Positions 50,302 through 62,766 of a stretch of 64,000 nucleotides of DNA are shown here, piece by piece. Position 1 is the stretch's first letter. The number at the start of each line of letters is the position of its first letter. The notes beneath the pieces were generated by a model. That model was not told the DNA's origin. It saw only the letters and a list, made by a program, of their open reading frames with translations, and did no database searches. Location: NCBI RefSeq assembly GCF_029855045.1, contig NZ_CP123228.1, positions 4,712,001 through 4,776,000 on the forward strand, read 5' to 3'. Both the position numbers and the translations under genes were made by a program. Origin of the DNA: Piscinibacter sp. XHJ-5 (GTDB lineage: Bacteria; Pseudomonadota; Gammaproteobacteria; Burkholderiales; Burkholderiaceae_C).

Positions 50302-51342
50302 TCAGCGGTGCGCCAGCGTGGCCGCGTTCGGGATGCCTTGGATCGGCGCCTCGTCCGTGCCGACGGTCTCGCGCGTGATCGCCTCGACGCGCCTGCGCGT
50401 GCCTTCAGGGTCGTTCACCCACTGACCGTAGAACTCATACGGGCACGCGGCCATGCCCTGATCGCCCTCGCGCGAGTTGATCAGCCCGGTGTAGCCGCGG
50501 TGCAGCAGCTTGAACAGGTGGTTCTCGCTCTGGCCGTTGCGGCGGAAGTCGCGGATCAGGCTCTTGGACAGCGCCGCGTACTGAATGCCCATCTCCTCCT
50601 CGCCGCACTCGCCCAGCGTGCGCCCGTCGAAGCCGATGAGCGCGCTGTGGCCGAAGTACGAGTACACGCCGTCGAAGCCCGATGCGTTGGCGACCGCCAC
50701 GTAGGTGTTGTTGGCGAAGGCCATCGCCTTGGAGATCAGGATCTGCTGCTCCTTCGCGGGGTACATGTAGCCCTGGCAGCGGATGATGAGCTCGGCGCCC
50801 TTCATCGCGCAGTCGCGCCAGATCTCCGGGTAGTTGCCGTCGTCGCAGATGATGAGGCTGATCTTCAGGCCCTTGGGCCCGTCGCTCACATAGGTGCGGT
50901 TGCCCGGATACCAGCCCTCGATCGGCACCCACGGCATGATCTTGCGGTACTTTTGGACGATCTCGCCCTGATCGTTCATCAGGATCAGCGTGTTGTAGGG
51001 CGCCTTGTTCGGGTGCTCCTCGTGGCGCTCGCCGGTGAGCGAGAACACGCCCCACACCTTGGCCTTGCGGCACGCGGCGGCGAAGATCTCGGTCTCTTCG
51101 CCGGGGACGGTTGCGGCGTTGTCGTACATCTCCTTGGCGTCGTACATGATGCCGTGCGTGCTGTACTCGGGGAAGACCACGAGGTCCATGCCCGGCAGAC
51201 CGAGCTTCATGGATTCGACCATGCGCGCGATGTTCTTCGCGTTCGCGATCACCTCGGCCTTCGTGTGCAGCCGCGGCATCCTGTAGTTCACGACGGCGAC
51301 GCCGACCGTGTCCTTGCTGCTCGAAATGTCGCCGTGGTGCAT
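50302..51342 (-). CDS. amiE: Aliphatic amidase (acetamidase, AmiE)
   Basis: A 346-residue amidase, exactly the length of Pseudomonas AmiE, hydrolysing short aliphatic amides (acetamide, propionamide) to the acid and ammonia. The nitrilase-superfamily triad falls at the AmiE positions: Glu59 (VVFPEYS), Lys134 (YRKIMPW) and Cys166 ([11 protein letters not shown]). The open frame runs further 5', but start [20 protein letters not shown] fits known enzymes. It ends the minus-strand amide cluster. It has its own upstream region (51343-51550) with the palindrome TACGTCAATCAACGTA about 65 bp ahead of the start, so it is probably controlled by the same two-component system as the urt genes. Confidence 0.95.
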
Positions 51343-51400: not shown

Positions 51401-51423
51401 GGCGAATACGTTGATTGACGTAG
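51401..51423. promoter_or_regulatory. Palindromic site upstream of amiE, core TACGT-N6-ACGTA
   Basis: Core at 51407-51422; on the minus strand it reads TACGTCAATCAACGTA, identical to the plus-strand core at 58290-58305. The outer GGCGAA also recurs. The arms TACGT/ACGTA are inverted repeats around a 6-bp centre, spacing typical of a dimeric LuxR/NarL-type response regulator. It lies 64 bp before the amiE start. Confidence 0.75.
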
Positions 51424-51550: not shown

Positions 51551-51907
51551 TCAGTGGCTGATCATCCAGGGCCGCTTGCTCGGGAACGCCTTGCTGCCGT
51601 TGGCCCCGCGGACGGTCGCGCCGCGCCCCTTCGGCGACGAGCAGCAGCCGCAGCCGCTCGGGTGGCGCATGCGCCCGTAGGCGCCGGCGCCGTCGCCCGA
51701 ACGGCGCGGCTCGTGCGTGGCACGTTCGTTCACCTCGATCGCGCTGCGGGTGTTGCCGTCCATGCACGCCAGCGCCGGCGCGCTGCCGTGGATGCGCGCC
51801 GACGGGGTCGCGCAGCGCGGGCACGGTGCCGGGTCGTTGCGTGCGGCGATCGAACGCAGCGCGTCGAATTCACCGCAGGCGGCACAGGCGTAGTCGTAGG
51901 TCGGCAT
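51551..51907 (-). CDS. fmdB: FmdB-family zinc-ribbon protein
   Basis: A 118-residue protein: [20 protein letters not shown] begins the FmdB zinc ribbon, with Cys pairs CAAC and CPRC; a second Cys cluster GCGCCSS follows at the end. The family is named for the fmd cluster of Methylophilus, where a regulatory role in amide use was proposed. It starts 9 bp after the fmdA stop, so it is in the same transcript as fmdA, and amiE follows 208 bp downstream. Confidence 0.85.
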
Positions 51908-51916
51908 CGCGCAGCC

Positions 51917-53149
51917 TCAGGCGAGATCGGGCGACAGCGGCATGTCGATCTTGCCGTCGATGTGTTTCACCGGGCCGGCCGCGCTCGGGTTGATGTCGAA
52001 GTCGAAGATCTGCGTCGGCAGCCACAGGGTGGCGCATGCGTTCGGGACGTCAACCACGCCGCTGATGTGGCCCTGCACCGGCGCCGTGCCGAGGATCGAG
52101 TAGGCCTGCGCCCCCGAGTAGCCGAACTTCTTCAGGTACTCGATCGCGTTGAGGCAGGCCTGGCGGTAGGCGATGTGCACGTCGAGGTAGTACTGCCTGC
52201 CCTGTTCGTCGACCGAGATCCCTTCGAAGATCAGGTAGTCGTTGTAGGTCGGCGTGATCGGACTGGGCTTGAAGATGGGGTTCCTGATGCCGTACTTCGC
52301 CATGCCGCCCTTGATCAGGCTCACGCGCATGTGCACCCAGCCGGCCATCTCGATCGCGCCGCAGAAGGTGATCTCGCCGTCGCCCTGGCTGAAGTGCAGG
52401 TCGCCCACCGAGAGGCCGGCGCCGTCGACGTACACCGGGAAGAAGATCTTCGACCCGCGCGAGAGATCCTTGATGTCGCAGTTGCCGCCGTGTTCGCGCG
52501 GCGGCACCGTACGCGCGCCTTCGGAGGCGACCTTCGCCGCGGCGTCGCCCTTGAGCTTGCCCAGATGGGCGGTCGGCGCGAACGGCGGGTTCGCGAGGCC
52601 GGGCACGCGCGTCGAGTCGGTCGCGATGAAGTCGATCTCGCGCTTGTTCCACATGTCGAGCATGGGCTTGTCGGGCAGGCAGCCGATGAGCCCAGGGTGG
52701 ATGAGCCCCGCGAAGTTCACGCCGGGCACGTGACGCGAACTGGTGAACATGCCGTGGAAGTCCCAGATCGACTTCTGGGCCTGCGGAAAGTGGTCGGTAA
52801 GGAAGCCGCCGCCGTTCTTCTTGCTGAAGAAGCCATTGAAGCCCCACAGGCTGTCGGGCTTGGCGCCAATGTCGAGCAGGTCGACGACGAGCAGGTCGCC
52901 CGGCTCCGCGCCCTTCACGCCGACCGGGCCGCTGAGGTAGTGCACGGTCGACAGGTCGATGTCTCGCACGTCGTCGGCGCTGTCGTTGTTCTTGATGTAG
53001 CCGCCAGTCCAGTCGTAGGTCTCGAGCACGAATTCGTCGCCCGGCTTCACCCAGCAGGCCATCGGGATGTCGGGGTGCCAGCGGTTGTGCACCATCTCGT
53101 TGCTGGGCGCAGGCTTGCTCAGGTCGACCTTGATCAGGGTTTCGGGCAT
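51917..53149 (-). CDS. fmdA: Formamidase (FmdA)
   Basis: A 410-residue enzyme of the FmdA_AmdA family that hydrolyses formamide (and sometimes acetamide) to formate and ammonia. Typical phrases: GAEPGDLLVVDLLDIG, WDFHGMFTSSRHVPGVNF, GLIHPGLIGCLP, REHGGNCDIKDLSRGSKIFFPVYVDGAG and SQGDGEITFCGAIEMAGWV. No catalytic residue is named with confidence. Length matches the Methylophilus protein (about 407). It lies 43 bp after urtE, so it is probably transcribed with the transporter operon. Confidence 0.95.
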   Translation of the reverse strand: MPETLIKVDLSKPAPSNEMVHNRWHPDIPMACWVKPGDEFVLETYDWTGGYIKNNDSADDVRDIDLSTVHYLSGPVGVKGAEPGDLLVVDLLDIGAKPDSLWGFNGFFSKKNGGGFLTDHFPQAQKSIWDFHGMFTSSRHVPGVNFAGLIHPGLIGCLPDKPMLDMWNKREIDFIATDSTRVPGLANPPFAPTAHLGKLKGDAAAKVASEGARTVPPREHGGNCDIKDLSRGSKIFFPVYVDGAGLSVGDLHFSQGDGEITFCGAIEMAGWVHMRVSLIKGGMAKYGIRNPIFKPSPITPTYNDYLIFEGISVDEQGRQYYLDVHIAYRQACLNAIEYLKKFGYSGAQAYSILGTAPVQGHISGVVDVPNACATLWLPTQIFDFDINPSAAGPVKHIDGKIDMPLSPDLA

Positions 53150-53192: not shown

Positions 53193-53882
53193 TCAGACGG
53201 AGAGGTACTGCCTGATGCGGCCCACGTCGGTGTCGGCGCGCGTGGTCTCGTGCACGAGCCGGCCGCCTTCGATGACGAAGAGGCGGTCGGCCACGTCCAT
53301 CGCGAAGCTCAGCACCTGCTCGGAGACGACGATCGTGATCTCGCGCAGCTTGCGGATCTCGTTGAGCGCCTTCGCGATGTCCTTGATGATCGAAGGCTGG
53401 ATGCCTTCGGTGGGCTCGTCGAGCAACAGCACCTTGGGCTCGGTGACGAGCGCTCGGGCGATCGCGAGCTGCTGCTGCTGACCACCCGAGAGGTTGCCGC
53501 CCTTGCGGCGCTTCATGTCGAACAGCACCGGGAACAACGCGTAGATCTCGTCGGGAATGCGCCGCGTCTTCGAGTTCTCGAGGCCGGTCTGGATGTTCTC
53601 CTCGACGGTCAGCGTCGGGAAGATCATGCGGCCCTGCGGCACGTAGGCGATGCCCTTGGCGACGCGTCGAAAGCTCTCGTCCTTCGAGACGTCGTTGCCG
53701 GCCACTTCGATGTGCCCGCTCTTGAGTGGCAGCACGCCCATCAGGCTCTTGAACAGCGTGGTCTTGCCCATGCCGTTGCGGCCCATGACCGCGACGGTCT
53801 CGTTCTTCGCCACCTCGAACGAGATGCCGTGCAGCGCCTCGCTCTGGCCGTACGCGACGAACAGGTCGTTGACTTTGAGCAT
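53193..53882 (-). CDS. urtE: Urea/short-amide ABC transporter, ATPase UrtE
   Basis: A 229-residue ATPase of the branched-chain amino acid/urea type (LivF-like). Walker A GRNGMGKTTLFKSLMG, signature LSGGQQQQLAIARAL, Walker B VLLLDEPTEGIQPS. It starts 26 bp after urtD, and fmdA follows 43 bp on. UrtE works with UrtD as the ATPase pair of the UrtABCDE importer for urea; in the fmd gene clusters a homologous ABC importer serves short amides as well. Confidence 0.95.
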   Translation of the reverse strand: MLKVNDLFVAYGQSEALHGISFEVAKNETVAVMGRNGMGKTTLFKSLMGVLPLKSGHIEVAGNDVSKDESFRRVAKGIAYVPQGRMIFPTLTVEENIQTGLENSKTRRIPDEIYALFPVLFDMKRRKGGNLSGGQQQQLAIARALVTEPKVLLLDEPTEGIQPSIIKDIAKALNEIRKLREITIVVSEQVLSFAMDVADRLFVIEGGRLVHETTRADTDVGRIRQYLSV

Positions 53883-53908: not shown

Positions 53909-54652
53909 TCAGTGGCCGAGGTAGACGTCAATCACCTTCGGATCGGCCTGTACGCGTTCCATCGGCCCCTCGGCGAGGATCTTCCCCTGGTGCATCACGG
54001 TGACCTTGTGGGCGATCTTCTTGACGAAGTCCATGTCGTGTTCGATCACGATCACCGAGCGGCCCTTGCAGATACGTTGCAGCAGCTCGGCGGTAAGCTC
54101 GCGCTCGCGGGCGCTCATGCCCGCGATCGGCTCGTCGAGCATCAGCAGCTCAGGCTCCTGCATCAGCAGCATCCCGATCTCGAGCCACTGCTTCTGGCCG
54201 TGGCTGAGCAGGCCCGCCTCGGTGTCGAGCTTGTCGATCAGGCCGATGTCCTCGGCGATGACCCGCACCCGCGAACGCACTTCGTCGGTGCACTTGAACG
54301 CGAGCGCGCCCAGCACCGAGCGGCCCGACGGGAACGAGACCTCGAGGTTCTGGAACACGCTCAGGTTCTCGTAGATCGACGGCGTCTGGAACTTGCGGCC
54401 GATGCCCAGGCGCACGCGCTGGTGCTCGGCCATGCGCGTGAGCTCGGTGTTCTTGAACTTGATGCTGCCGGCGCTCGCCTTGGTCTTGCCGCAGATCAGG
54501 TCGAGCAGCGTCGTCTTGCCGGCGCCGTTCGGCCCGATGATCACGCGCAGCTCGTTCTTGTCGATGTACAGCGTCAACGCGTCGATCGCCTTGAAGCCGT
54601 CAAACGAGACGGTCAGGTCCTCGACGGCGAGTGCAAAGTCGGTGTTGCTCAT
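53909..54652 (-). CDS. urtD: Urea/short-amide ABC transporter, ATPase UrtD
   Basis: A 247-residue ATPase (LivG-like). Walker [17 protein letters not shown], signature LSHGQKQWLEIGMLL, Walker B LLMLDEPIAGM, His in VIEHDMDFVKK. The variant signature SHGQKQ is characteristic of UrtD. The start is close to urtC (12 bp). Together with UrtE it powers import through UrtBC. Confidence 0.95.
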   Translation of the reverse strand: MSNTDFALAVEDLTVSFDGFKAIDALTLYIDKNELRVIIGPNGAGKTTLLDLICGKTKASAGSIKFKNTELTRMAEHQRVRLGIGRKFQTPSIYENLSVFQNLEVSFPSGRSVLGALAFKCTDEVRSRVRVIAEDIGLIDKLDTEAGLLSHGQKQWLEIGMLLMQEPELLMLDEPIAGMSARERELTAELLQRICKGRSVIVIEHDMDFVKKIAHKVTVMHQGKILAEGPMERVQADPKVIDVYLGH

Positions 54653-54664
54653 CGTCGTGCCCCT

Positions 54665-55882
54665 TCAGGCCCGCTGGCCGCTGACGCCGCCGGGCAGCGG
54701 GGTGTCGGGGGAAGCGCCGGGCGCGCGCGCGGTTCTGACCAGCGGCTCGACTTGGCTCGGGATCGCGCTCGCCGAGGGCGCGGCGGGCGCAGCAGTCGAA
54801 CGCTCGCGCCAGCGCTTCCAGCGCGGCACCACGTGGTGTTCCCACACGCCGGCCAGGCCCATCGGAAAGGCCATCGTGACGCCGATGAACAGCGCGGCCA
54901 TCAGGAACAGCCACAGATCCGGGAAGCTCTCCGAGAAGTACGTCTTGCCGGCGTTGACGAGCAAGGTGCCGTACACGGCGCCGACCAGGCTCATGCGCCC
55001 GCCGACCGCCGCGAAGATCACCATCTCGATCGACGGCACGATGCCGACGAAGCTCGGCGACATGAAGCCCACCTGCAGCGAGAACAGTGCGCCGCCGATG
55101 CCCGAGAGCGCCGCCGCGAGGCAGAACGTGAAGACCTTGAAGTTCGCGACGTCGTAGCCGGAAAAGCGCACCCGGTCTTCCTTGTCGCGCATCGCGAGCA
55201 GCAACGTGCCGGCCTTGCCGGTCTGGATCCAGCGGCACAGGAGGATGCTGCCGATCAGCAGCGCGACGCAGACGTAGTAGAGAACGTACTTGGCGTGGTC
55301 GGTGCGCGTGTCCCAGCCGAGCAGCGTCTTCAGGTCGGTCATGCCGTTGACGCCGCCCGTGTAGCCCTGCTGGCCGATGATCAGCACCGTGAGGATCAGC
55401 GCGACCGCCTGCGTGATGATCGCGAAGTACACGCCGCCGACACGGCGCTTGAACATCGCGTAGCTGATGATCCAGGCGAGCAGCGTCGGCACCGCCACCA
55501 CCGCGATCAGCGCGAGCGGGAAGTGCTTGAACGGTACCCAGAACGCCGGCAGCGCGGTGAGCTGGTTCCAGTCCATGAAGTCGGGAATGCCGGGGGTCGA
55601 CTGGATCTTCGTGCTGACCGGATCGGACGCCTCGAGCTTCAGGAACATCGCCATCGCGTAGCCGCCGAGCCCGAAGAACACGCCCTGGCCGAGGCTCAGC
55701 ACCCCGCCGTAGCCCCACACCATCACGAGGCCGATCGCGGCGAACGCGTAGGTGAGGTACTTGCCGATCAGGTTCAGGCGGAAGATGTCGAGCGCCAGCG
55801 GCAACACGACCGTGAGCAGGATCGCCAGCAGCAACACGCTGCCGAGCTGGTAACGCTTGAGCCAGGCTTGGACGAGATTCAT
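54665..55882 (-). CDS. urtC: Urea/short-amide ABC transporter, permease UrtC
   Basis: A 405-residue permease (LivM-like) with about ten helices and the conserved GYGGVLSLGQGVFFGLGGYAM and VNGMTDLKTLLGWD. The long C-terminus (APAAPSASAIPSQVEPLVR...) is a cytoplasmic tail. The gene is 40 bp after urtB and 12 bp before urtD. Forms the channel with UrtB. Confidence 0.95.
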   Translation of the reverse strand: MNLVQAWLKRYQLGSVLLLAILLTVVLPLALDIFRLNLIGKYLTYAFAAIGLVMVWGYGGVLSLGQGVFFGLGGYAMAMFLKLEASDPVSTKIQSTPGIPDFMDWNQLTALPAFWVPFKHFPLALIAVVAVPTLLAWIISYAMFKRRVGGVYFAIITQAVALILTVLIIGQQGYTGGVNGMTDLKTLLGWDTRTDHAKYVLYYVCVALLIGSILLCRWIQTGKAGTLLLAMRDKEDRVRFSGYDVANFKVFTFCLAAALSGIGGALFSLQVGFMSPSFVGIVPSIEMVIFAAVGGRMSLVGAVYGTLLVNAGKTYFSESFPDLWLFLMAALFIGVTMAFPMGLAGVWEHHVVPRWKRWRERSTAAPAAPSASAIPSQVEPLVRTARAPGASPDTPLPGGVSGQRA

Positions 55883-55922: not shown

Positions 55923-56837
55923 TCATCGCCGCACCTTGCTCGCGAACAGCCCCTGCGGCCGCACCATCAGGATCAGCACGATCAGCGAGAGCGTCAGCAC
56001 CTTGGCCATCGAGCCGGCCATGAAGAATTCGGTGATCGACTGCGTCTGCGCGATGCCGAACGCCGAGACGACGGTGCCCAGCAGGCTCGCCGCGCCCCCG
56101 AAGGTGACGACAAGGAAGGAGTCGACGATGTAGAGCGAGCCGGACGTCGGTCCGGTCGAGCCGATCGTCGTGAACGCGGCGCCCGCGATGCCGGCGACGC
56201 CGCAGCCGATCGCGAAGGTGAGCCGGTCGGTGCGCTTGGTGTCGATGCCGATCGCGTTGGCCATCACGCGGTTGCTCACCGTGGCGCGTACCCGCAGGCC
56301 CCAGCGGCTCTTGTTCAGCGCGATCAGCAGGCCGCCGGTGACGACGGTCGTCAGCGCAAGCACGAACAGGCCGTTGATCGGGATGTCGAGACCCGGGTGC
56401 GGCGCCCAGGAGCCGAGCAGCCAGTCGGGCAGCGTCGGGCTCACCTCCTTCGGGCCGATGAAGCTGCGGAAGGTCTGCTGCAGCGCGAGGCTGATGCCCC
56501 ACGTCGCGAGCAGCGTGTCGAGCGGGCGCTTGTAGAGGTGGCGGATCATCGCCCACTCGACGATCCAGCCGCCGATGAACGCGAACACGAACGCGAGCAC
56601 GATCGCGATCGGGAAGTAGTACGGCACCAGGCCGGGTGCGTGTTTCTCGGCGAGCGTCGAGCCGAGGTAGATGGTGTAGGCGCCGATCGTCATGAACTCG
56701 CCGTGCGCCATGTTGATGACGCCCATTTGTCCGAAGATGATCGCGAGCCCCAGGCCCATCAGCAGCAGCACCGCGAACAGGCTGAGCCCGGCGAAGCCCT
56801 GCATCAGGCCGATGTTCAGCATTTCGGAAAGACTCAT
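55923..56837 (-). CDS. urtB: Urea/short-amide ABC transporter, permease UrtB
   Basis: A 304-residue permease (LivH-like). FGQMGVINMAHGEFMTIGAYT is the family hallmark; VIGC-type helices follow (ATWGISLALQQTFRSFIGPK, CGVAGIAGAAFTTIGSTGP). Unlike UrtB of cyanobacteria and many proteobacteria, the extended periplasmic N-terminal domain is absent, as in the FmdE-like permeases of amide clusters. Starts 85 bp after urtA. Confidence 0.95.
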   Translation of the reverse strand: MSLSEMLNIGLMQGFAGLSLFAVLLLMGLGLAIIFGQMGVINMAHGEFMTIGAYTIYLGSTLAEKHAPGLVPYYFPIAIVLAFVFAFIGGWIVEWAMIRHLYKRPLDTLLATWGISLALQQTFRSFIGPKEVSPTLPDWLLGSWAPHPGLDIPINGLFVLALTTVVTGGLLIALNKSRWGLRVRATVSNRVMANAIGIDTKRTDRLTFAIGCGVAGIAGAAFTTIGSTGPTSGSLYIVDSFLVVTFGGAASLLGTVVSAFGIAQTQSITEFFMAGSMAKVLTLSLIVLILMVRPQGLFASKVRR

Positions 56838-56922: not shown

Positions 56923-58173
56923 TTACTGGTAGCCGGCCGGGAACGGATCGGGCTTGATCAGCTGCGGCGACTCGGACACGACCTTGAACGTGGCGTCGGG
57001 CATGCCCATCGCGATGCGCGACTTGCTCCACAGGTGGTGGTTCGCGTCGAGCTTCACGTAGCCTTCGGGCGCTTCCTTCAGTTCGATGCCCGGCGAGGCG
57101 GCGACGATCTTGTCGACGTCGAAGCTCTTCGCGCGTTCGACGGCGGCCTTCCAGAGCCACGGACCGAGGTAGCCGGCCTGCGTCACGTCGCCGATCACGG
57201 CGTCCTTGCCGTACTTGCCCTTGAACGCGGCGACGAACTTCTTGTTGTTCTCGTTGTCCAGCGACTGGAAGTACTTCATCGACGAGAAGAAGCCGGCGAA
57301 GTTCTCGCCGCCGACGCCGGTCATCTCGTCCTCGGTGACGGACAGCGTCACGAGCAGCTGCTTGTCGCCGGTGATGCCCGCAGCCTTCAGCGCCTTGTAG
57401 AAGGCAACGTTCGAGCCGCCGACCACCGCCGCGTAGATGCAGTCGGGCTTCTGCACCTTGATCTTGTTCATCAGCGAGCCGAAGTTCGTGCTGCCCAGCG
57501 GGTAGTACTCCTCGCCGACGACCTTGCCCTTCTGGAAGTTCTCGATGTGCTTGCGCGCGATCTTCATCGAGGTGCGCGGCCAGATGTAGTCCGAGCCGAT
57601 CAGGAAGAAGGTCTTGGCCTTCTTCTGGTCCTTCGCCCACTCGAGGCTGTAGAGGATCTGCTGGGTCGCTTCCTGCCCGGTGTAGAAGACGTTCTTCGAC
57701 TGCTCCAGGCCTTCGTAGAAGGTCGGGTAGTACAGCAGCCCGTTCTCCTTCTCGAACACCGGCAGCACCGCCTTGCGCGAGGCGGAGGTCCAGCAGCCGA
57801 ACACCGCGGCGCAGTGGTCGTTGATCAGCAGCTTCTTGGCCTTCTCCGCAAACGTCGGCCAGTCGGATGCGCCGTCTTCCTTGATCACCTTTATCTTGCG
57901 ACCGAGCACGCCGCCCATCGCGTTGATCTGGTCGATCGCGAGCTGCTCGGCCTGGATCGAGCCTGTTTCGGAGATCGCCATCGTGCCCGTCGACGAGTGC
58001 AGCTGGCCCACCGTGACTTCGGTGTCCGTGATCGCCAACTTCGTCGTGTTGACCGAGCCGGTGGATTGGCCGAACGAGAAGTTCGCAGCACCGAGCAGGG
58101 GCACCGCAGCGGCACCCTGCAGCAGTCGACGGCGGCTCGTATCGGGCGATTGCGGATCGTTGTCGCGAGACAT
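56923..58173 (-). CDS. urtA: Urea/short-amide ABC transporter, substrate-binding protein UrtA
   Basis: A 416-residue periplasmic binding protein of the type-1 fold (Peripla_BP_5). It begins with a Tat-type signal (TSRRRLLQGAAAVPLLGAAN), consistent with folded export. Typical pieces: EVTVGQLHSSTGTMAISETG (ligand site), FGCWTSASRKAVLPVFE, LEQSKNVFYTGQEATQQIL and GGSNVAFYKALKAAGI. Start MSRDND is preferred to a longer ORF because GGAGAG lies 7 nt upstream. It is the first gene of the minus-strand operon; the shared palindrome lies about 116 bp ahead of it. Confidence 0.95.
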   Translation of the reverse strand: MSRDNDPQSPDTSRRRLLQGAAAVPLLGAANFSFGQSTGSVNTTKLAITDTEVTVGQLHSSTGTMAISETGSIQAEQLAIDQINAMGGVLGRKIKVIKEDGASDWPTFAEKAKKLLINDHCAAVFGCWTSASRKAVLPVFEKENGLLYYPTFYEGLEQSKNVFYTGQEATQQILYSLEWAKDQKKAKTFFLIGSDYIWPRTSMKIARKHIENFQKGKVVGEEYYPLGSTNFGSLMNKIKVQKPDCIYAAVVGGSNVAFYKALKAAGITGDKQLLVTLSVTEDEMTGVGGENFAGFFSSMKYFQSLDNENNKKFVAAFKGKYGKDAVIGDVTQAGYLGPWLWKAAVERAKSFDVDKIVAASPGIELKEAPEGYVKLDANHHLWSKSRIAMGMPDATFKVVSESPQLIKPDPFPAGYQ

Positions 58174-58283
58174 GGTGTGGTTCTCTCCGGATGAAATGGT
58201 CAAGCGTCGAACCGAGCCGCGCCGCCTCCGCAGAGGACCGCGCTTCGTCGGGCTGAAGAAATGGTGCGTGGGGGCGTGCGTGC

Positions 58284-58306
58284 GGCGAATACGTCAATCA
58301 ACGTAG
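58284..58306. promoter_or_regulatory. Palindromic site in the urtA/kinase divergent region, core TACGTCAATCAACGTA
   Basis: Core at 58290-58305 with the same GGCGAA flank as the site upstream of amiE. It lies 116 bp before urtA and 103 bp before the kinase gene start, so one protein bound here could control both directions. The repeat of the same 16-mer at two control regions of one functional cluster is the strongest regulatory signal in the window. Confidence 0.75.
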
Positions 58307-58408: not shown

Positions 58409-61400
58409 GTGGTCAGCCAGCCGCTGAAGACGCCGCTCTTGAAGCCGCAGAAGATCTTCCACATCCGCCGCGACTACAACTCCTGGGTCGCGAACGAGTC
58501 GATGGAAGACTATGCGCTGCGCTACACGCCGCGCAGCTTTCGCAAGTGGAGCGAATGGCGTGTCGCGAACACAGCGTTCGGCGCCACCTCGTTCCTCGCG
58601 CTCGAGGCGATCGGCGGCGCGATAGCGCTCAGCTACGGCTTCACGAACGCGCTGTGGGCCATCCTCGTGGTGGGCCTTGTCACCTTCCTGACCGGGCTGC
58701 CGATCAGCTACTACGCCGCGAAGTACGGCGTCGACATGGATCTGCTGACCCGCGGTGCCGGCTTCGGCTACCTCGGATCGACGATCACCTCGCTGATCTA
58801 CGCGAGCTTCACGTTCATCTTCTTCGCGCTCGAGGCGGCCATCCTCGCGCTCGCGCTGCAGATGTACTTCGGCTGGCCGCTTTCGGTCTGCTATCTGGTC
58901 GCGTCGCTCGGCGTAGTGCCGCTCGTGATGCACGGGATCACGCTGATCCAGCGTCTGCAGTGGTGGACGCAGCCTGTGTGGATGATCCTCTTCGTGCTGC
59001 CGTACCTCGCGGTGCTGATCAAGAAGCCCGACGCGTTCAGCGACTTCACGACGCTCGTGGGCGGCGTGTCGCACAGCAACGGCTTCGACGCGCTGATGTT
59101 CGGTGCCGCCGCGACGGTCGCGTTCTCGCTCGTCGTGCAGATCGGCGAGCAGGTCGACTACCTGCGCTTCCTGCCCGAGAAGACGACGGCGAACCGCGTG
59201 GGCTGGTGGACGGCCGTGCTGGTGGCCGGGCCCGGCTGGATCGTGCCGGGCATGCTGAAGATGCTCGGCGGCGCGTTTCTCGCCTTCCTTGCGCTGCAGC
59301 ACGAGATCCCGGTCGACAACGCGATCGAGCCGACGCAGATGTACCTCGCCGGCTTCGGCTACCTGTTCGATTCGCCCGCCTGGGTGCTCGGCGCGACAAC
59401 GCTGTTCGTCGTGGTGTCGCAGATCAAGATCAACCTCACAAACGCCTACGCCGGCTCGCTCGCCTGGTCGAACTTCTTCGCCCGGCTCACGCACAGCCAC
59501 CCGGGCCGCGTGGTGTGGCTGGTGTTCAACGTGCTGATCGCGGTTCTGCTGATGACGCTGGGCGTGTTCGAGGCGCTGGAAGGCGTTCTCGGGCTCTACA
59601 GCAACGTCGCGATCGCGTGGGTCGGCGCGCTGGTCGCGGACCTGGTCATCAACAAGCCGCTCGGCTGGAGCCCGAAGCACATCGAGTTCAAGCGCGCACA
59701 CCTGTACGACATCAATCCGGTCGGCCTCGGCGCGATGCTCGTCGCTGCCGGACTCGGCATGGCCGCCTACGCCGGCGCGCTGGGCGCGGCGGCGCGCGCA
59801 TTCGCGCCCTTCATCGCGCTGCTGACGTCGATGGCGATCTCGCCTCTGCTCGCCTGGTGGACGAAAGGCCGCTTCTACGAGGCGCGCCCGAACCTCGCAC
59901 CATGGAAGCCGGGAGAACTGGTCAAGTGCTCGGTGTGCACGAACGAGTTCGAGTCGGAAGACATGGCGCATTGCCCGGCCTACGACGCGCCGATCTGCTC
60001 GCTGTGCTGCACCCTCGAATCGCGCTGCCACGATCGCTGCAAGACCAGCTCGCGCGCCGCCGAGCAGGTGCGCACCGCGCTGACCTCGGTGCTGCCCGAG
60101 GCGGTCAGCAGCCGCGTGAATTTCCGGGTCGCCCACTACCTGGTCGCCGTGCTGTCGCTGATCGCGTTGTTCGCCGCAATCCTCGGGGTCGTCTACGAGC
60201 AGCACGCCGCGTTGCACGGCGCAGAGCGCGAGCTCCTGCGCGCGCCATTGCTGAAGGCCTTCGCCCTGCTGTCGCTGTGCGCGGCGGTCGGCGCGTGGTG
60301 GATGGTGCTCGGCAGCGAAAGCCGGCGCATGGCGGAGGACGAGTCGAGCCGGCAGAACGAGCTGCTGATGCGCGAGATCGAAGCGCACAAGCGCACCGAC
60401 AGCGCGCTGCAGGCGGCCAAGGACCTGGCCGAGGCGGCGAACCAGGCGAAGACGCGCTACGTGACCGGCATGACGCACGAGCTGCGCACGCCCCTCAACG
60501 GCATCCTCGGCTACGCCCAAATCCTGCTGAAGGACGAGCAGATCCAGGGCTCGCGGCGTGCCGCGGTCGACACCATCCATCACAGCGGGGAACACCTGCA
60601 CGGCCTGATCGACGGGCTGCTCGACCTGGCGCGCATCGAGGCCGGGAAGCTGCGGCTCGACATCGCACCGCTGCCGATGCGCGACTTCCTCGACGACGTG
60701 GTCCGCATGGTGGCACCGCAGGCGACGGCCAAGGGACTCGCGTTCGAGCTGCGCACGCAGGGCCGCGTGCCGACCTACGTGCGTGCGGATGCGCGCCGCC
60801 TGCGGCAGATTCTGATCAACCTGCTCGCCAACGCCGTGCGCTTCACCGACAGCGGCAGCGTGACGCTTCTGCTCGATCACACGCGCGAGGTGGCACGTTT
60901 CCACGTGATCGACACGGGCATCGGCATTGCCTCCCAGGACCTCGAGCGCATCTTCCTGCCGTTCGAGCGGGGCAGCGCCGGTCGTCGAAACGGCGAGCCC
61001 GGGACGGGGCTCGGCCTGACGATCACGCGGCTGCTGACGCAGCTGATGGGCGGCGAGATGACCGTGCGCAGCTCGCCGGGAGAAGGCAGCACGTTCACCG
61101 TGCGCCTCTACCTCAGCGAGACCGCCGAGCCAGGGCGGGCGCGCACGCCGCGCCATCGGCCGGTCAGCGGCTACATCGGGGCGCGCCGCAACCTGCTCGT
61201 CGTGGACGACCATCCGACCCAGCGCCAGATGCTCGCCGGCATGCTCCTGCCGCTCGGCTTCCGGGTGCTCGAGGCGGCCAGCGGGCGCGAGTGCCTGGAG
61301 AGCGTGCGCGACAGGCGCCCCGATGCCGTGCTGCTCGACATCTCGATGGACGACATGGACGGCTGGGAGACGCTGCGCCAACTGCGCGCGCACGGTTTCC

Positions 61401-61840
61401 ACGACCTGCCGGTGATCATGGTGTCTGCCAACGCGTTCGAGAACCAGAGCGACCGCATCGCGGCGAGCGGCTGCCAGGGCTTCGTCGACAAGCCGGTGAT
61501 CGAGTCGGAGCTTCTGGCCGTGCTGCAGCGCCACCTGGAGCTCGAATGGGTCGCCGAGCTGGCCGTGTCCGGCTGGACACCGCTTCCGACCGAACTACCG
61601 GTGAAAGCGCTCGCGGTCATCCCGACCCCGCACCTGCAGGCCCTGATGCAGCTGGCGCATCTCGGCCACGCACGCGGAGTACAGCGTGCGCTCGACGCAC
61701 TCGTCGAAGAGGACAGCGCGCTCGAACCGCACGTCGCGGGGATGCGCGCACTGGCCACGCGCTTCGCGTGGGGCGAGCTGATCGAGTATCTGGCGAACGA
61801 GCTGCAGCGCGCCGACGACGCGACCGAGGCAGCCGCATGA
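58409..61840 (+). CDS. NCS1-type transporter fused to a histidine kinase and a receiver (hybrid sensor)
   Basis: A 1143-residue protein. Residues about 45-490 are a complete NCS1 (purine-cytosine permease/hydantoin-type) transporter: GATSFLALEAIGGAIALSYG, DLLTRGAGFGYLGS, GEQVDYLRFLPEKT, QIKINLTNAYAGSLAWS. Residues 507-544 are Cys-rich (KCSVCTNEF...SRCHDRCK). Two more helices (about 573-640) lead to a HisKA domain (His690 in MTHELRTPLNG), HATPase motifs (NLLANAVRF, DTGIGI, GTGLGLTI) and a receiver (VVDDHPTQR, phospho-Asp977 in LLDISMDD). The tail lacks the Hpt His. It is divergent from urtA and overlaps the response regulator by 4 nt. Probably it senses urea or a short amide as a transported ligand. 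Start: GTG 58409 (no better one in frame). Confidence 0.9.
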   Translation: MVSQPLKTPLLKPQKIFHIRRDYNSWVANESMEDYALRYTPRSFRKWSEWRVANTAFGATSFLALEAIGGAIALSYGFTNALWAILVVGLVTFLTGLPISYYAAKYGVDMDLLTRGAGFGYLGSTITSLIYASFTFIFFALEAAILALALQMYFGWPLSVCYLVASLGVVPLVMHGITLIQRLQWWTQPVWMILFVLPYLAVLIKKPDAFSDFTTLVGGVSHSNGFDALMFGAAATVAFSLVVQIGEQVDYLRFLPEKTTANRVGWWTAVLVAGPGWIVPGMLKMLGGAFLAFLALQHEIPVDNAIEPTQMYLAGFGYLFDSPAWVLGATTLFVVVSQIKINLTNAYAGSLAWSNFFARLTHSHPGRVVWLVFNVLIAVLLMTLGVFEALEGVLGLYSNVAIAWVGALVADLVINKPLGWSPKHIEFKRAHLYDINPVGLGAMLVAAGLGMAAYAGALGAAARAFAPFIALLTSMAISPLLAWWTKGRFYEARPNLAPWKPGELVKCSVCTNEFESEDMAHCPAYDAPICSLCCTLESRCHDRCKTSSRAAEQVRTALTSVLPEAVSSRVNFRVAHYLVAVLSLIALFAAILGVVYEQHAALHGAERELLRAPLLKAFALLSLCAAVGAWWMVLGSESRRMAEDESSRQNELLMREIEAHKRTDSALQAAKDLAEAANQAKTRYVTGMTHELRTPLNGILGYAQILLKDEQIQGSRRAAVDTIHHSGEHLHGLIDGLLDLARIEAGKLRLDIAPLPMRDFLDDVVRMVAPQATAKGLAFELRTQGRVPTYVRADARRLRQILINLLANAVRFTDSGSVTLLLDHTREVARFHVIDTGIGIASQDLERIFLPFERGSAGRRNGEPGTGLGLTITRLLTQLMGGEMTVRSSPGEGSTFTVRLYLSETAEPGRARTPRHRPVSGYIGARRNLLVVDDHPTQRQMLAGMLLPLGFRVLEAASGRECLESVRDRRPDAVLLDISMDDMDGWETLRQLRAHGFHDLPVIMVSANAFENQSDRIAASGCQGFVDKPVIESELLAVLQRHLELEWVAELAVSGWTPLPTELPVKALAVIPTPHLQALMQLAHLGHARGVQRALDALVEEDSALEPHVAGMRALATRFAWGELIEYLANELQRADDATEAAA

Positions 61841-62766
61841 GCCGCAGGGCCGACCCCGACGCGACCGTCCGAGCGCGACGCGACGTCATGAGCGACGTCG
61901 GCGACATCGTGCTGGTCGTCGACGACGCGCCGCGTTCGCTCGGCGCCTTGTGCAGGGAACTCGAGGAGCACGGCTACACGGTGCTCGTTGCATCCGACGG
62001 CGAGTCTGCGCTCGAGCGACTCGAGCTCGTGACGCCCGACGCGGTGCTGCTCGATGCGCTGATGCCGGGGCTGGATGGCTTCGAAACCTGCAGGCGGCTG
62101 AAGTCGAACCCGGCCTGGTCGCACATTCCGGTGATCTTCATGACCGGACTGTCGGAGACGGATCACATCGTCAAGGCTTTCGGTGCCGGCGGGGTCGACT
62201 ACGTCGTCAAGCCGGTGCGCACGCCCGAGGTCCTGGCGCGCCTGGCGGCCCACGTTCGCAACGCGCGTGCCGCCCGCATGGCGCGCGACGCCATCGACAT
62301 CGGCGGGCACGGCGTGCTGATGGTCGATGCGCACCGTCGCATCGCTTGGCGATCGCCGCGCGCTGCGGCGATGGTCGGCGAGTTCTTCGGCGGCGACGAC
62401 TCCGCCTGTGCCGAGTGGCTGGACAAGAGCGTGGCTGCGGGCGGTGAGCTGCACACGTTCACCCGCGGCGGGCACACGATCAGCGCACGACAGCTCGGCG
62501 CCGCGGGCCTCGGCGAGACGATGTGGCTGCTCGGTATGCGCGGTGACGACGCGCCGAGCGCGTCGCGCTTGGCGACGGCATTGCTCACGCCGCGCGAGAC
62601 CGAAGTCCTGTCGTGGATCGCGAAGGGCAAGACCAACCGTGACGTCGGCGATATTCTCGGCATGAGCCCCCGCACGGTGAACAAGCACCTCGAACACGTG
62701 TTCGAAAAACTCGGCGTGGAGACGCGTGCGGCGGCCGCGGCGTTGGCGAGTCGCGAGTTGGGATGA
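61837..62766 (+). CDS. LuxR-type response regulator
   Basis: A 309-residue regulator. The receiver covers about residues 23-145 (VLVVDDAPRS, phospho-Asp73 in LLDALMPGLDG, VIFMTGLSE, VVKPVRTPE). A 90-residue middle part (GVLMVDAHRRIAWRSPRAAA) is PAS-like but short. The C-terminal LuxR helix-turn-helix is complete: LTPRETEVLSWIAKGKTNRD, GDILGMSPRTVNKHLEHVFE. The start at 61837 overlaps the kinase stop (ATGA), so the two are cotranslated; an alternative start is ATG 61888. It is the obvious candidate to bind the TACGT-N6-ACGTA sites and activate the urt, fmd and amiE genes. Confidence 0.9.
   Translation: MSRRADPDATVRARRDVMSDVGDIVLVVDDAPRSLGALCRELEEHGYTVLVASDGESALERLELVTPDAVLLDALMPGLDGFETCRRLKSNPAWSHIPVIFMTGLSETDHIVKAFGAGGVDYVVKPVRTPEVLARLAAHVRNARAARMARDAIDIGGHGVLMVDAHRRIAWRSPRAAAMVGEFFGGDDSACAEWLDKSVAAGGELHTFTRGGHTISARQLGAAGLGETMWLLGMRGDDAPSASRLATALLTPRETEVLSWIAKGKTNRDVGDILGMSPRTVNKHLEHVFEKLGVETRAAAAALASRELG

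Follow-up and report, generated by a model that had tools for sequence, protein, structure and literature searches.

The 64,000-nucleotide window analysed here, positions 4,712,001 to 4,776,000 of contig NZ_CP123228.1 from Piscinibacter sp. XHJ-5, encodes a histidine kinase fused to an NCS1-type transporter domain and, directly behind it, a LuxR-type response regulator; both are divergent from a urt-fmd-amiE gene cluster. We propose that the two proteins form a two-component switch, in which an NCS1-fold amide sensor acts through the LuxR-type regulator on the urt-fmd genes, amiE and its own operon, and we put the probability of this reading at about three in four. The case is made from sequence, namely from protein architecture, conservation, gene linkage, the distribution of a predicted operator and its co-variation with the recognition helix; from these we infer the ligand, the signal direction, the phosphate route, activation rather than repression and a division of labour between paralogues. 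The sensor family appears widespread and probably switches on the uptake and breakdown of formamide, acetamide and urea.

Architecture of the sensor kinase and its regulator

The hybrid sensor kinase (NCS1-HisKA-HATPase-REC; 58409..61840, + strand) is read from a GTG start as one open reading frame (ORF) of 1143 amino acids. Domain-model scans place HisKA at residues 681-746 (E 2e-17), HATPase_c at 794-902 (E 8e-27) and the receiver (REC) at 930-1039 (E 1e-24). By domain scan and alignment, the phosphoacceptor His690 within HisKA is encoded at 60476..60478 (+) and Asp977 within the receiver at 61337..61339 (+). Across 152 kinase sequences, which are our 160 loci minus eight with kinase frames below 870 aa as called (L118, L139, L141, L156, L166, L170, L180 and L210), His690, Asn804 and Asn808 are invariant and Asp977 is kept in 143. 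With the HisKA histidine, the N-box asparagine of the HATPase and the receiver aspartate all present, the protein is a hybrid HisKA kinase. The response regulator (61837..62766, +; domain scan) consists of a receiver at residues 25-136 and a LuxR (GerE) helix-turn-helix at 249-304 with the recognition helix SPRTVNKH. If translation begins at its first ATG (61837), the gene shares 4 nt (ATGA) with the end of the kinase gene; another in-frame ATG, 17 codons further on, is also a possible start. The receiver, the GerE helix-turn-helix, the predicted palindromic site and the helix co-variation described below agree in placing it with LuxR/NarL-type regulators.

The initial annotation had described the single-ORF fusion of an NCS1-type transporter to a HisKA-HATPase-receiver kinase, the intact His690 and Asp977, the 4-nt overlap and the divergence from urtA. 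All of these were borne out, the overlap on the premise of the first ATG and the divergence by NCBIfam matches to urtABCDE-fmdA-fmdB-amiE on the opposite strand. Its description of the transporter part as NCS1-like stood as to family, by profile-profile comparison and without a Pfam NCS1 match, and had to be corrected as to length, which is nearer 465 (residues ~30-495) than about 445. A Cys-rich stretch, two further hydrophobic segments (578-630) and the predicted operators are features beyond that account.

The transporter domain (58496..59893, +; by homology and averaged hydropathy) has 12 hydrophobic segments when hydropathy is averaged over the 152 sequences. The Pfam NCS1 model PF02133 matched neither the window kinase nor any of the 20 relatives scanned, and nothing anywhere in the XHJ-5 genome (6.65 Mb, one contig) above its gathering score. 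The NCBIfam cytosine-permease model does match the transporter part (E 2.5e-8), below the model cut-off. A profile of 20 relatives aligned with an alignment of four NCS1 proteins over 422 columns (hhalign, 99.7%, E 4e-27), and the four-protein alignment retrieved Mhp1 (2JLN; E 2e-38) and CodB (7QOA; E 2.5e-30) in the PDB set. Searches of PDB and Pfam with the transporter part itself gave nothing useful, so that the homology is seen only through NCBIfam and the profile-profile comparison. No SLC5 model matched the kinase in the domain scans; its sequence relatives are NCS1 proteins. In another genome, a stand-alone protein (L118:8453-9940) is 30% identical to the sensor's transporter part and matches PF02133. 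Because the Pfam model is silent while the profile-profile, Mhp1/CodB and L118 links match, the transporter part is, on these alignments, a divergent NCS1 branch and not a canonical member. The L118 protein is a candidate relative of the ancestor; it has Arg at the place of the sensors' invariant Lys340.

Within the transporter part, E142, Q244, E247, Q248, D250, Q338, K340, N342 and N345 are invariant in all 152 sequences, and positions 138 and 237 are Phe in 137 and Val in 145 of them. Residues of Mhp1 were transferred to the sensor by hand through two successive alignments. What we take to be the Mhp1 pocket (W117, Q121, W220 and N318) then falls at F138, E142, V237 and N345, and T313, presumably of its Na2 site, falls at K340. 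The conserved positions would fit a small polar ligand and no sodium site; the NCS1 part may bind or transport an amide or urea.

Between transporter and kinase lies a Cys-rich linker (residues 505-546; 59921..60046, +; from conservation over the 152 sequences). C507, C510, C522, C530, C533 and C534 are present in 152 of 152 sequences and C540 and C544 in 151; the region has no Pfam match at 1e-3 and is a probable metal-binding finger. It is followed, ahead of the kinase, by two extra hydrophobic segments with cores at 578-594 and 614-630 (60140..60298, +; hydropathy).

Spread of the family and gene linkage

A word-based protein search gave at least 8000 matches at E up to 1e-3, the architecture being judged by the Pfam lines of the best 120. 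Of 398 genomes drawn evenly from the phylum, 61 contained a match; 52 of these have one at E < 1e-100 and 9 have weak matches only. A scan of named genomes confirmed at least 575 relatives. Two sets of loci were examined. One comprises 78 places with flanks of up to 20 kb, the window and a second copy from the XHJ-5 genome, together 80; the other comprises 80 named loci, the best 80 of the at least 575 confirmed, four cyanobacteria among them. Filters of 17 kb and of kinase score were passed by 72 of the 80 loci of the first set, window and second copy included, and by 60 of the 80 named ones.

With UrtA, FmdA, AmiE, UreA and UreC as markers, a marker was found in 72/72 loci of the first set and 55/60 named loci, together 127/132. 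Among 40 arbitrary stretches of 20 kb, taken from 40 of these genomes, the count was 0/40; the stretches were picked by hand with their content unseen and are not random draws. When ORFs were clustered without reference to markers, the largest clusters matched in position the kinase (151 loci), the regulator (129) and the Urt/Fmd/AmiE/Ure genes; names were given from position and by eye, and a few small clusters of 6 to 9 loci have no identity. Marker linkage and marker-free clustering together lead us to reject a chance neighbourhood. The initial annotation had expected urt, fmd and amiE beside related fusions and had regarded fusions apart from amide or urea genes as evidence against its proposal; when this was checked, 127/132 loci did have urt, fmd, amiE or urease genes nearby. 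The counts are not independent because the loci are related by descent; occurrence in several classes carries more weight.

Predicted operator and recognition helix

Of 157 kinase-upstream regions, 66 contain the dyad TACGT-N6-ACGTA, compared with 4 for the most frequent dyad in five letter shuffles. Refinement gave the palindrome ATACGTCA-NN-TGACGTAT as operator consensus. A matrix trained on the same kinase-upstream sequences that it scores exceeds 8 in 96/157 regions; the best scores of shuffled regions have a 95th percentile of -1.1 and a maximum of 12.8. In the window, the predicted operators are ATACGTCAATCAACGTAG in the urtA/kinase intergenic region (58289..58306) and ATACGTTGATTGACGTAG (51406..51423), 64 bp upstream of the likely amiE start at 51342, neither assigned to a strand. 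The XHJ-5 genome has the exact core at two places, one between urtA and kinase and one just ahead of amiE; the core read backwards, as a control, also occurs twice.

In 3.03 Mb of kinase loci 152 sites lie over threshold, against 2 in 0.8 Mb of control sequence. Of these, 101 fall in the gap shared by urtA and kinase, 12 precede urtA only and 9 the kinase only; fmdA is preceded by 15 and amiE by 3. A further 2 stand in a ureA-kinase gap and 1 in an fmdA-kinase gap, and the remaining 9 are at none of these places. A genome-wide search for TACGTC-N5-ACGTA in 17 further genomes with amide-type kinases found 24 distinct places: 17 in the kinase gap (16 with urtA on the other side and one, in G414, with fmdA), 3 at fmdA, 3 at amiE and 1 elsewhere. 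In G246 and G412 the amiE sites and the kinase are separated by 10 to 13 kb; in G207 they are on different contigs. We dropped G207 as an example of control at a distance, since its amiE and kinase are each close to a contig end and could be adjacent.

The regulator is tied to this site by the residue that follows RTV in its recognition helix. Co-variation was first counted by a strict pattern in 85 of 160 regulators, from which a hidden Markov model was then built that covers 141; the second count is used here. In all 67 loci whose sites are of TACGT type (58 with the site ahead of the kinase, 9 with it at another place in the locus) this residue is Asn. In the 20 loci of TACGC type (14 and 6, respectively) it is Asp, Thr, His or Lys in 17 and Asn in the other three. 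Six loci with mixed sites have Asn (3), Asp (2) or Thr (1), and 48 loci without a site have Asn (26), Lys (17), Asp (2), Thr (2) or His (1). Inspection of the tree by eye suggests three lineages with the change (Asp, Thr and Lys/His). The co-variation of helix and half-site therefore links regulator and site by an argument beyond position alone.

A urease-linked branch with a variant of the predicted operator

The XHJ-5 genome holds a second NCS1-kinase, 65% identical to the first in the transporter part. Together with its regulator (L004:8754-13218; 1354753-1359217 of the genome, C1) it is divergent from ureA-ureB-ureC, which were named by reading and whose proteins were later used as markers; a large ORF with a LuxR-like end, as judged by eye, follows at L004:13226-15916. 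In a FastTree phylogeny this kinase belongs to a clade of 34 rows with support 100, of which 23 have urease genes, 5 urtA-type genes only, 1 fmd with urtA and 5 no marker. Outside the clade fmd or amiE is found in 57/75 rows and urease genes in 5, and the window kinase falls among these amide-linked kinases. The window system thus probably represents an amide branch and its paralogue a urea branch, and the second kinase beside ureABC is the better candidate for urea.

Kinase loci of the urease-linked clade showed TACGCC-N4-GGCGTA-type sites ahead of a second urtA. The XHJ-5 genome has one exact copy of this variant, just upstream of urtA2 and 36 kb from its kinase (urtA2 at L262:7225-8596, C1 1391224-1392595, with urtB- and urtC-like ORFs after it by eye). 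In 17 further genomes it was found at 15 places, 13 of them upstream of urtA2, and in 4 genomes not at all. Seven of the 13 urtA2 sites are outside the stretches of discovery (G404, G399, G413, G019, G225, G389 and G379); five of them are separated from the kinase by 14 to 245 kb (245 kb in G379), and for two it is on another contig.

Proposed mechanism and alternative explanations

We propose that the NCS1-fold membrane domain would bind a short amide, most likely formamide or acetamide and possibly urea, and that its conformational change would be passed through the Cys-rich finger and the two extra helices to the HisKA/HATPase core. His690 would then be phosphorylated, and the phosphate would reach the LuxR-type regulator either directly or with the attached receiver as a gate; direct transfer with the receiver as modulator is assumed because no HPt domain was matched in the domain scan of the window proteins. 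The phosphorylated regulator dimer would bind the palindromic operator and activate urtABCDE-fmdAB, amiE and its own operon. The paralogous pair beside ureABC would handle urea in the same cell via the variant operator upstream of the second urtA. The earlier suggestion, that the NCS1 part is a transceptor reporting urea or short amides to the regulator and so controlling the neighbouring uptake and amidase genes, is partly supported. Its regulatory half is well supported by gene linkage, by predicted operators upstream of kinase, fmdA and amiE that are rare elsewhere in the genomes searched, and by the helix co-variation; it is refined here by the probable split between amide and urea.

Several observations weigh against this reading. 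The separation of the branches by gene context is strong but not clean, and the core pocket positions are identical in both; position 148, which is Tyr in 34/34 urease-branch rows and mostly Leu in 40 beta/gamma amide-branch rows, is a lead only. Five named loci have no marker (L199, L200, L206, L209 and L214), of which three belong to the urease-linked clade and two are cyanobacterial, and 58/160 loci carry an operator of neither type. The backwards-read core pattern gave 31 strand-matches against 38 in the 17 genomes with amide-type kinases, and the backwards-read variant occurred 4 times in the XHJ-5 genome and at 45 places against 15 in the 17 genomes searched for the variant. Because such controls are as frequent genome-wide as the motifs, or more frequent, placement and not number is the argument; and because the kinase-upstream sites defined the motif, new evidence comes only from the sites at fmdA, amiE and urtA2 and from how seldom the motif stands elsewhere. 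A shared site was sought in the ureA/kinase gap of the urease branch and not found, the variant being present in 3/21; the gap of the second XHJ-5 copy has no site, which leaves control of ureABC itself without operator support.

The transporter domain is complete, with its 12 hydrophobic segments and its homology to Mhp1 and CodB, and it could therefore also be a true transceptor that imports amides or urea while the kinase reads flux or an occluded state, as proposed for CbrA, which moves histidine with proton coupling according to the available account (PMC13022988). A dedicated ABC transporter is encoded next door, and Na+ coupling is unlikely because the invariant K340 falls, by hand alignment, on a Na2-site residue of Mhp1; on balance we consider import by the sensor rather unlikely. 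H+ coupling is conceivable since CbrA, too, is described with Lys at the Na2 site (PMC13022988). Alternatively, the NCS1 part or the Cys-rich finger could read a product or the nitrogen state (ammonium, pH or nickel). The invariant Cys cluster could bind metal and one branch stands beside a nickel enzyme; a comparable gene cluster of Methylophilus methylotrophus is reported to be induced by formamide and urea and repressed by ammonia (PMC10781810), and the transporter-kinase Ks-Amt5 is named as binding external ammonia (PMC12918730). We regard such a signal as improbable. The polar residues where a substrate would be expected to bind do not vary, amidase-linked loci retain the finger even when no urease genes are near, and the sigma-54 consensus has no match at 49-63 kb of the window, which leaves room for other nitrogen control.

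Transporter-derived anchors could decay to passive roles. If the NCS1 part were a mere anchor, the kinase and regulator would answer another cue and the amide neighbours would be historical. This is very improbable, given that all nine polar or charged transporter positions examined are invariant in 152 sequences, which likewise makes an ordinary hybrid kinase with an unremarkable membrane anchor unlikely, and that the variant operator stays at urtA2 even where urtA2 is far from the kinase. We prefer the amide-sensing switch. Beyond it, we tentatively rate at slightly below even odds a fuller picture of an undescribed receptor family in which the NCS1 fold serves as a carboxamide receptor with a charged pocket (E142, K340 and N345) and a new eight-Cys module, and in which duplicated amide and urea branches, with a change from TACGT to TACGC and of the helix residue, work side by side in one cell.

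Relation to known systems

The proposed layout works like that of CrbS/CrbR with another transporter family and an apparently different linker. As described in PMC5715377, CrbS is likewise a transporter-fused hybrid kinase with a receiver, paired with a LuxR-family regulator, and an imperfect palindrome (ACTU motif) lies upstream of the regulated genes; CrbR needs this palindrome upstream of acetate genes. There the parts are SLC5, a STAC four-helix linker and acetate genes, whereas here they are NCS1, a putative Cys-rich finger with two predicted helices and amide or urea genes. The sensor differs from its homologues Mhp1 and CodB, related over most of the transporter part via the intermediate NCS1 alignment, in being fused to a kinase, in not being recognised by PF02133 and in its hand-aligned pocket residues. 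The partner of CbrA is NtrC-type. In the account of CbrA (SLC5-STAC-PAS-kinase; PMC13022988), which calls it a rare transceptor, a LeuT-type transporter is the input of a histidine kinase, as here, and its Na2-site Lys corresponds to our hand-aligned invariant Lys; unlike here, the transporter family is another one, no receiver is attached and control is of carbon and global. Ks-Amt5 resembles our sensor in having a transporter-type module directly on a histidine kinase in a nitrogen context, and differs in its Amt module, its anammox host and a regulator that the source says is unidentified (PMC12918730). The fmdCABDEF cluster of M. methylotrophus shares a formamidase, a putative regulator and a binding-protein transporter for short amides and urea; the account names a putative positive regulator and no sensor kinase (PMC10781810).

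Clusters of urt and amide genes recur across proteobacteria and no sensor for them was found in the literature searched, for which the NCS1-kinase family is a candidate; in such a Pseudomonas cluster the amidase regulators AmiC and AmiR are said to be missing (PMC13209695). Since the family comes with a defined operator and regulon, direct tests of the question are possible. With this family, the few transporter-kinase fusions known so far (SLC5 and Amt) would gain a further transporter type, and the CrbS/CrbR layout of transporter fold, hybrid kinase, LuxR regulator and palindrome would be seen to recur with a different transporter; biosensors for amides and urea could draw on its parts. The two branches resemble a natural two-component duplication with a matched change of DNA specificity. 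No functional account of an NCS1-kinase fusion was found in our literature search, the scope of which excluded most subscription papers. Two genome papers, PMC13296017 and PMC2907700, name a kinase and a regulator next to urt genes, possibly of this family, and give neither a function. GrtK of PMC12918730 (PilS-like domain, 427 aa), as described there, and the systems of PMC8905175 and PMC12411852, as far as their accounts go, proved unrelated.

Neighbouring genes and variant family members

On the - strand, the divergent cluster encodes a urtA-type binding protein (56923..58203; ORF from TTG 58203, with an ATG at 58173), the urtB (55923..56837) and urtC (54665..55882) permeases, the urtD (53909..54652) and urtE (53193..53882) ATPases, the formamidase fmdA (51917..53149; also by domain scan), an FmdB-type zinc-ribbon protein with an RPWMISH domain (51551..51907) and the aliphatic amidase amiE (50302..51342). 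Every one is above its own NCBIfam cut-off; UrtA passes TIGR03407 narrowly, with 503.5 bits against 492.75. A Bradyrhizobium japonicum urt cluster beside FmdA- and AmiE-type genes was viewed as an amide transporter in the account of an earlier study (PMC3098086), and formamide uptake was suggested for a Pseudomonas cluster (PMC13209695). The fmdA-linked urt operon may likewise encode a transporter of amides. Against the urea UrtA model, the UrtA beside the amide-type kinase scores 522 bits in G246 and 507 bits in G225, compared with 598 and 597 for the second UrtA of the respective genome, a difference that a separate subtype would show. UrtA proteins linked to other kinases reach about 563 bits, and the score ranges overlap between genomes.

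Some family members depart from the usual plan. In L122 and L136 the kinase frame is shorter (923 and 1018 aa), has no receiver Asp and is possibly truncated or broken by a frameshift. L097, L114 and L134 form a separate NCS1-kinase group without the attached receiver Asp and with a formamidase gene downstream; the marker search found no regulator of the usual kind there. The cyanobacterial members L200, L206, L215 and L216 also have no attached receiver Asp. L215 adjoins urt-like genes and an amidase that shares 79% identity with AmiE, and the L200 kinase is followed by an isochorismatase-family protein.

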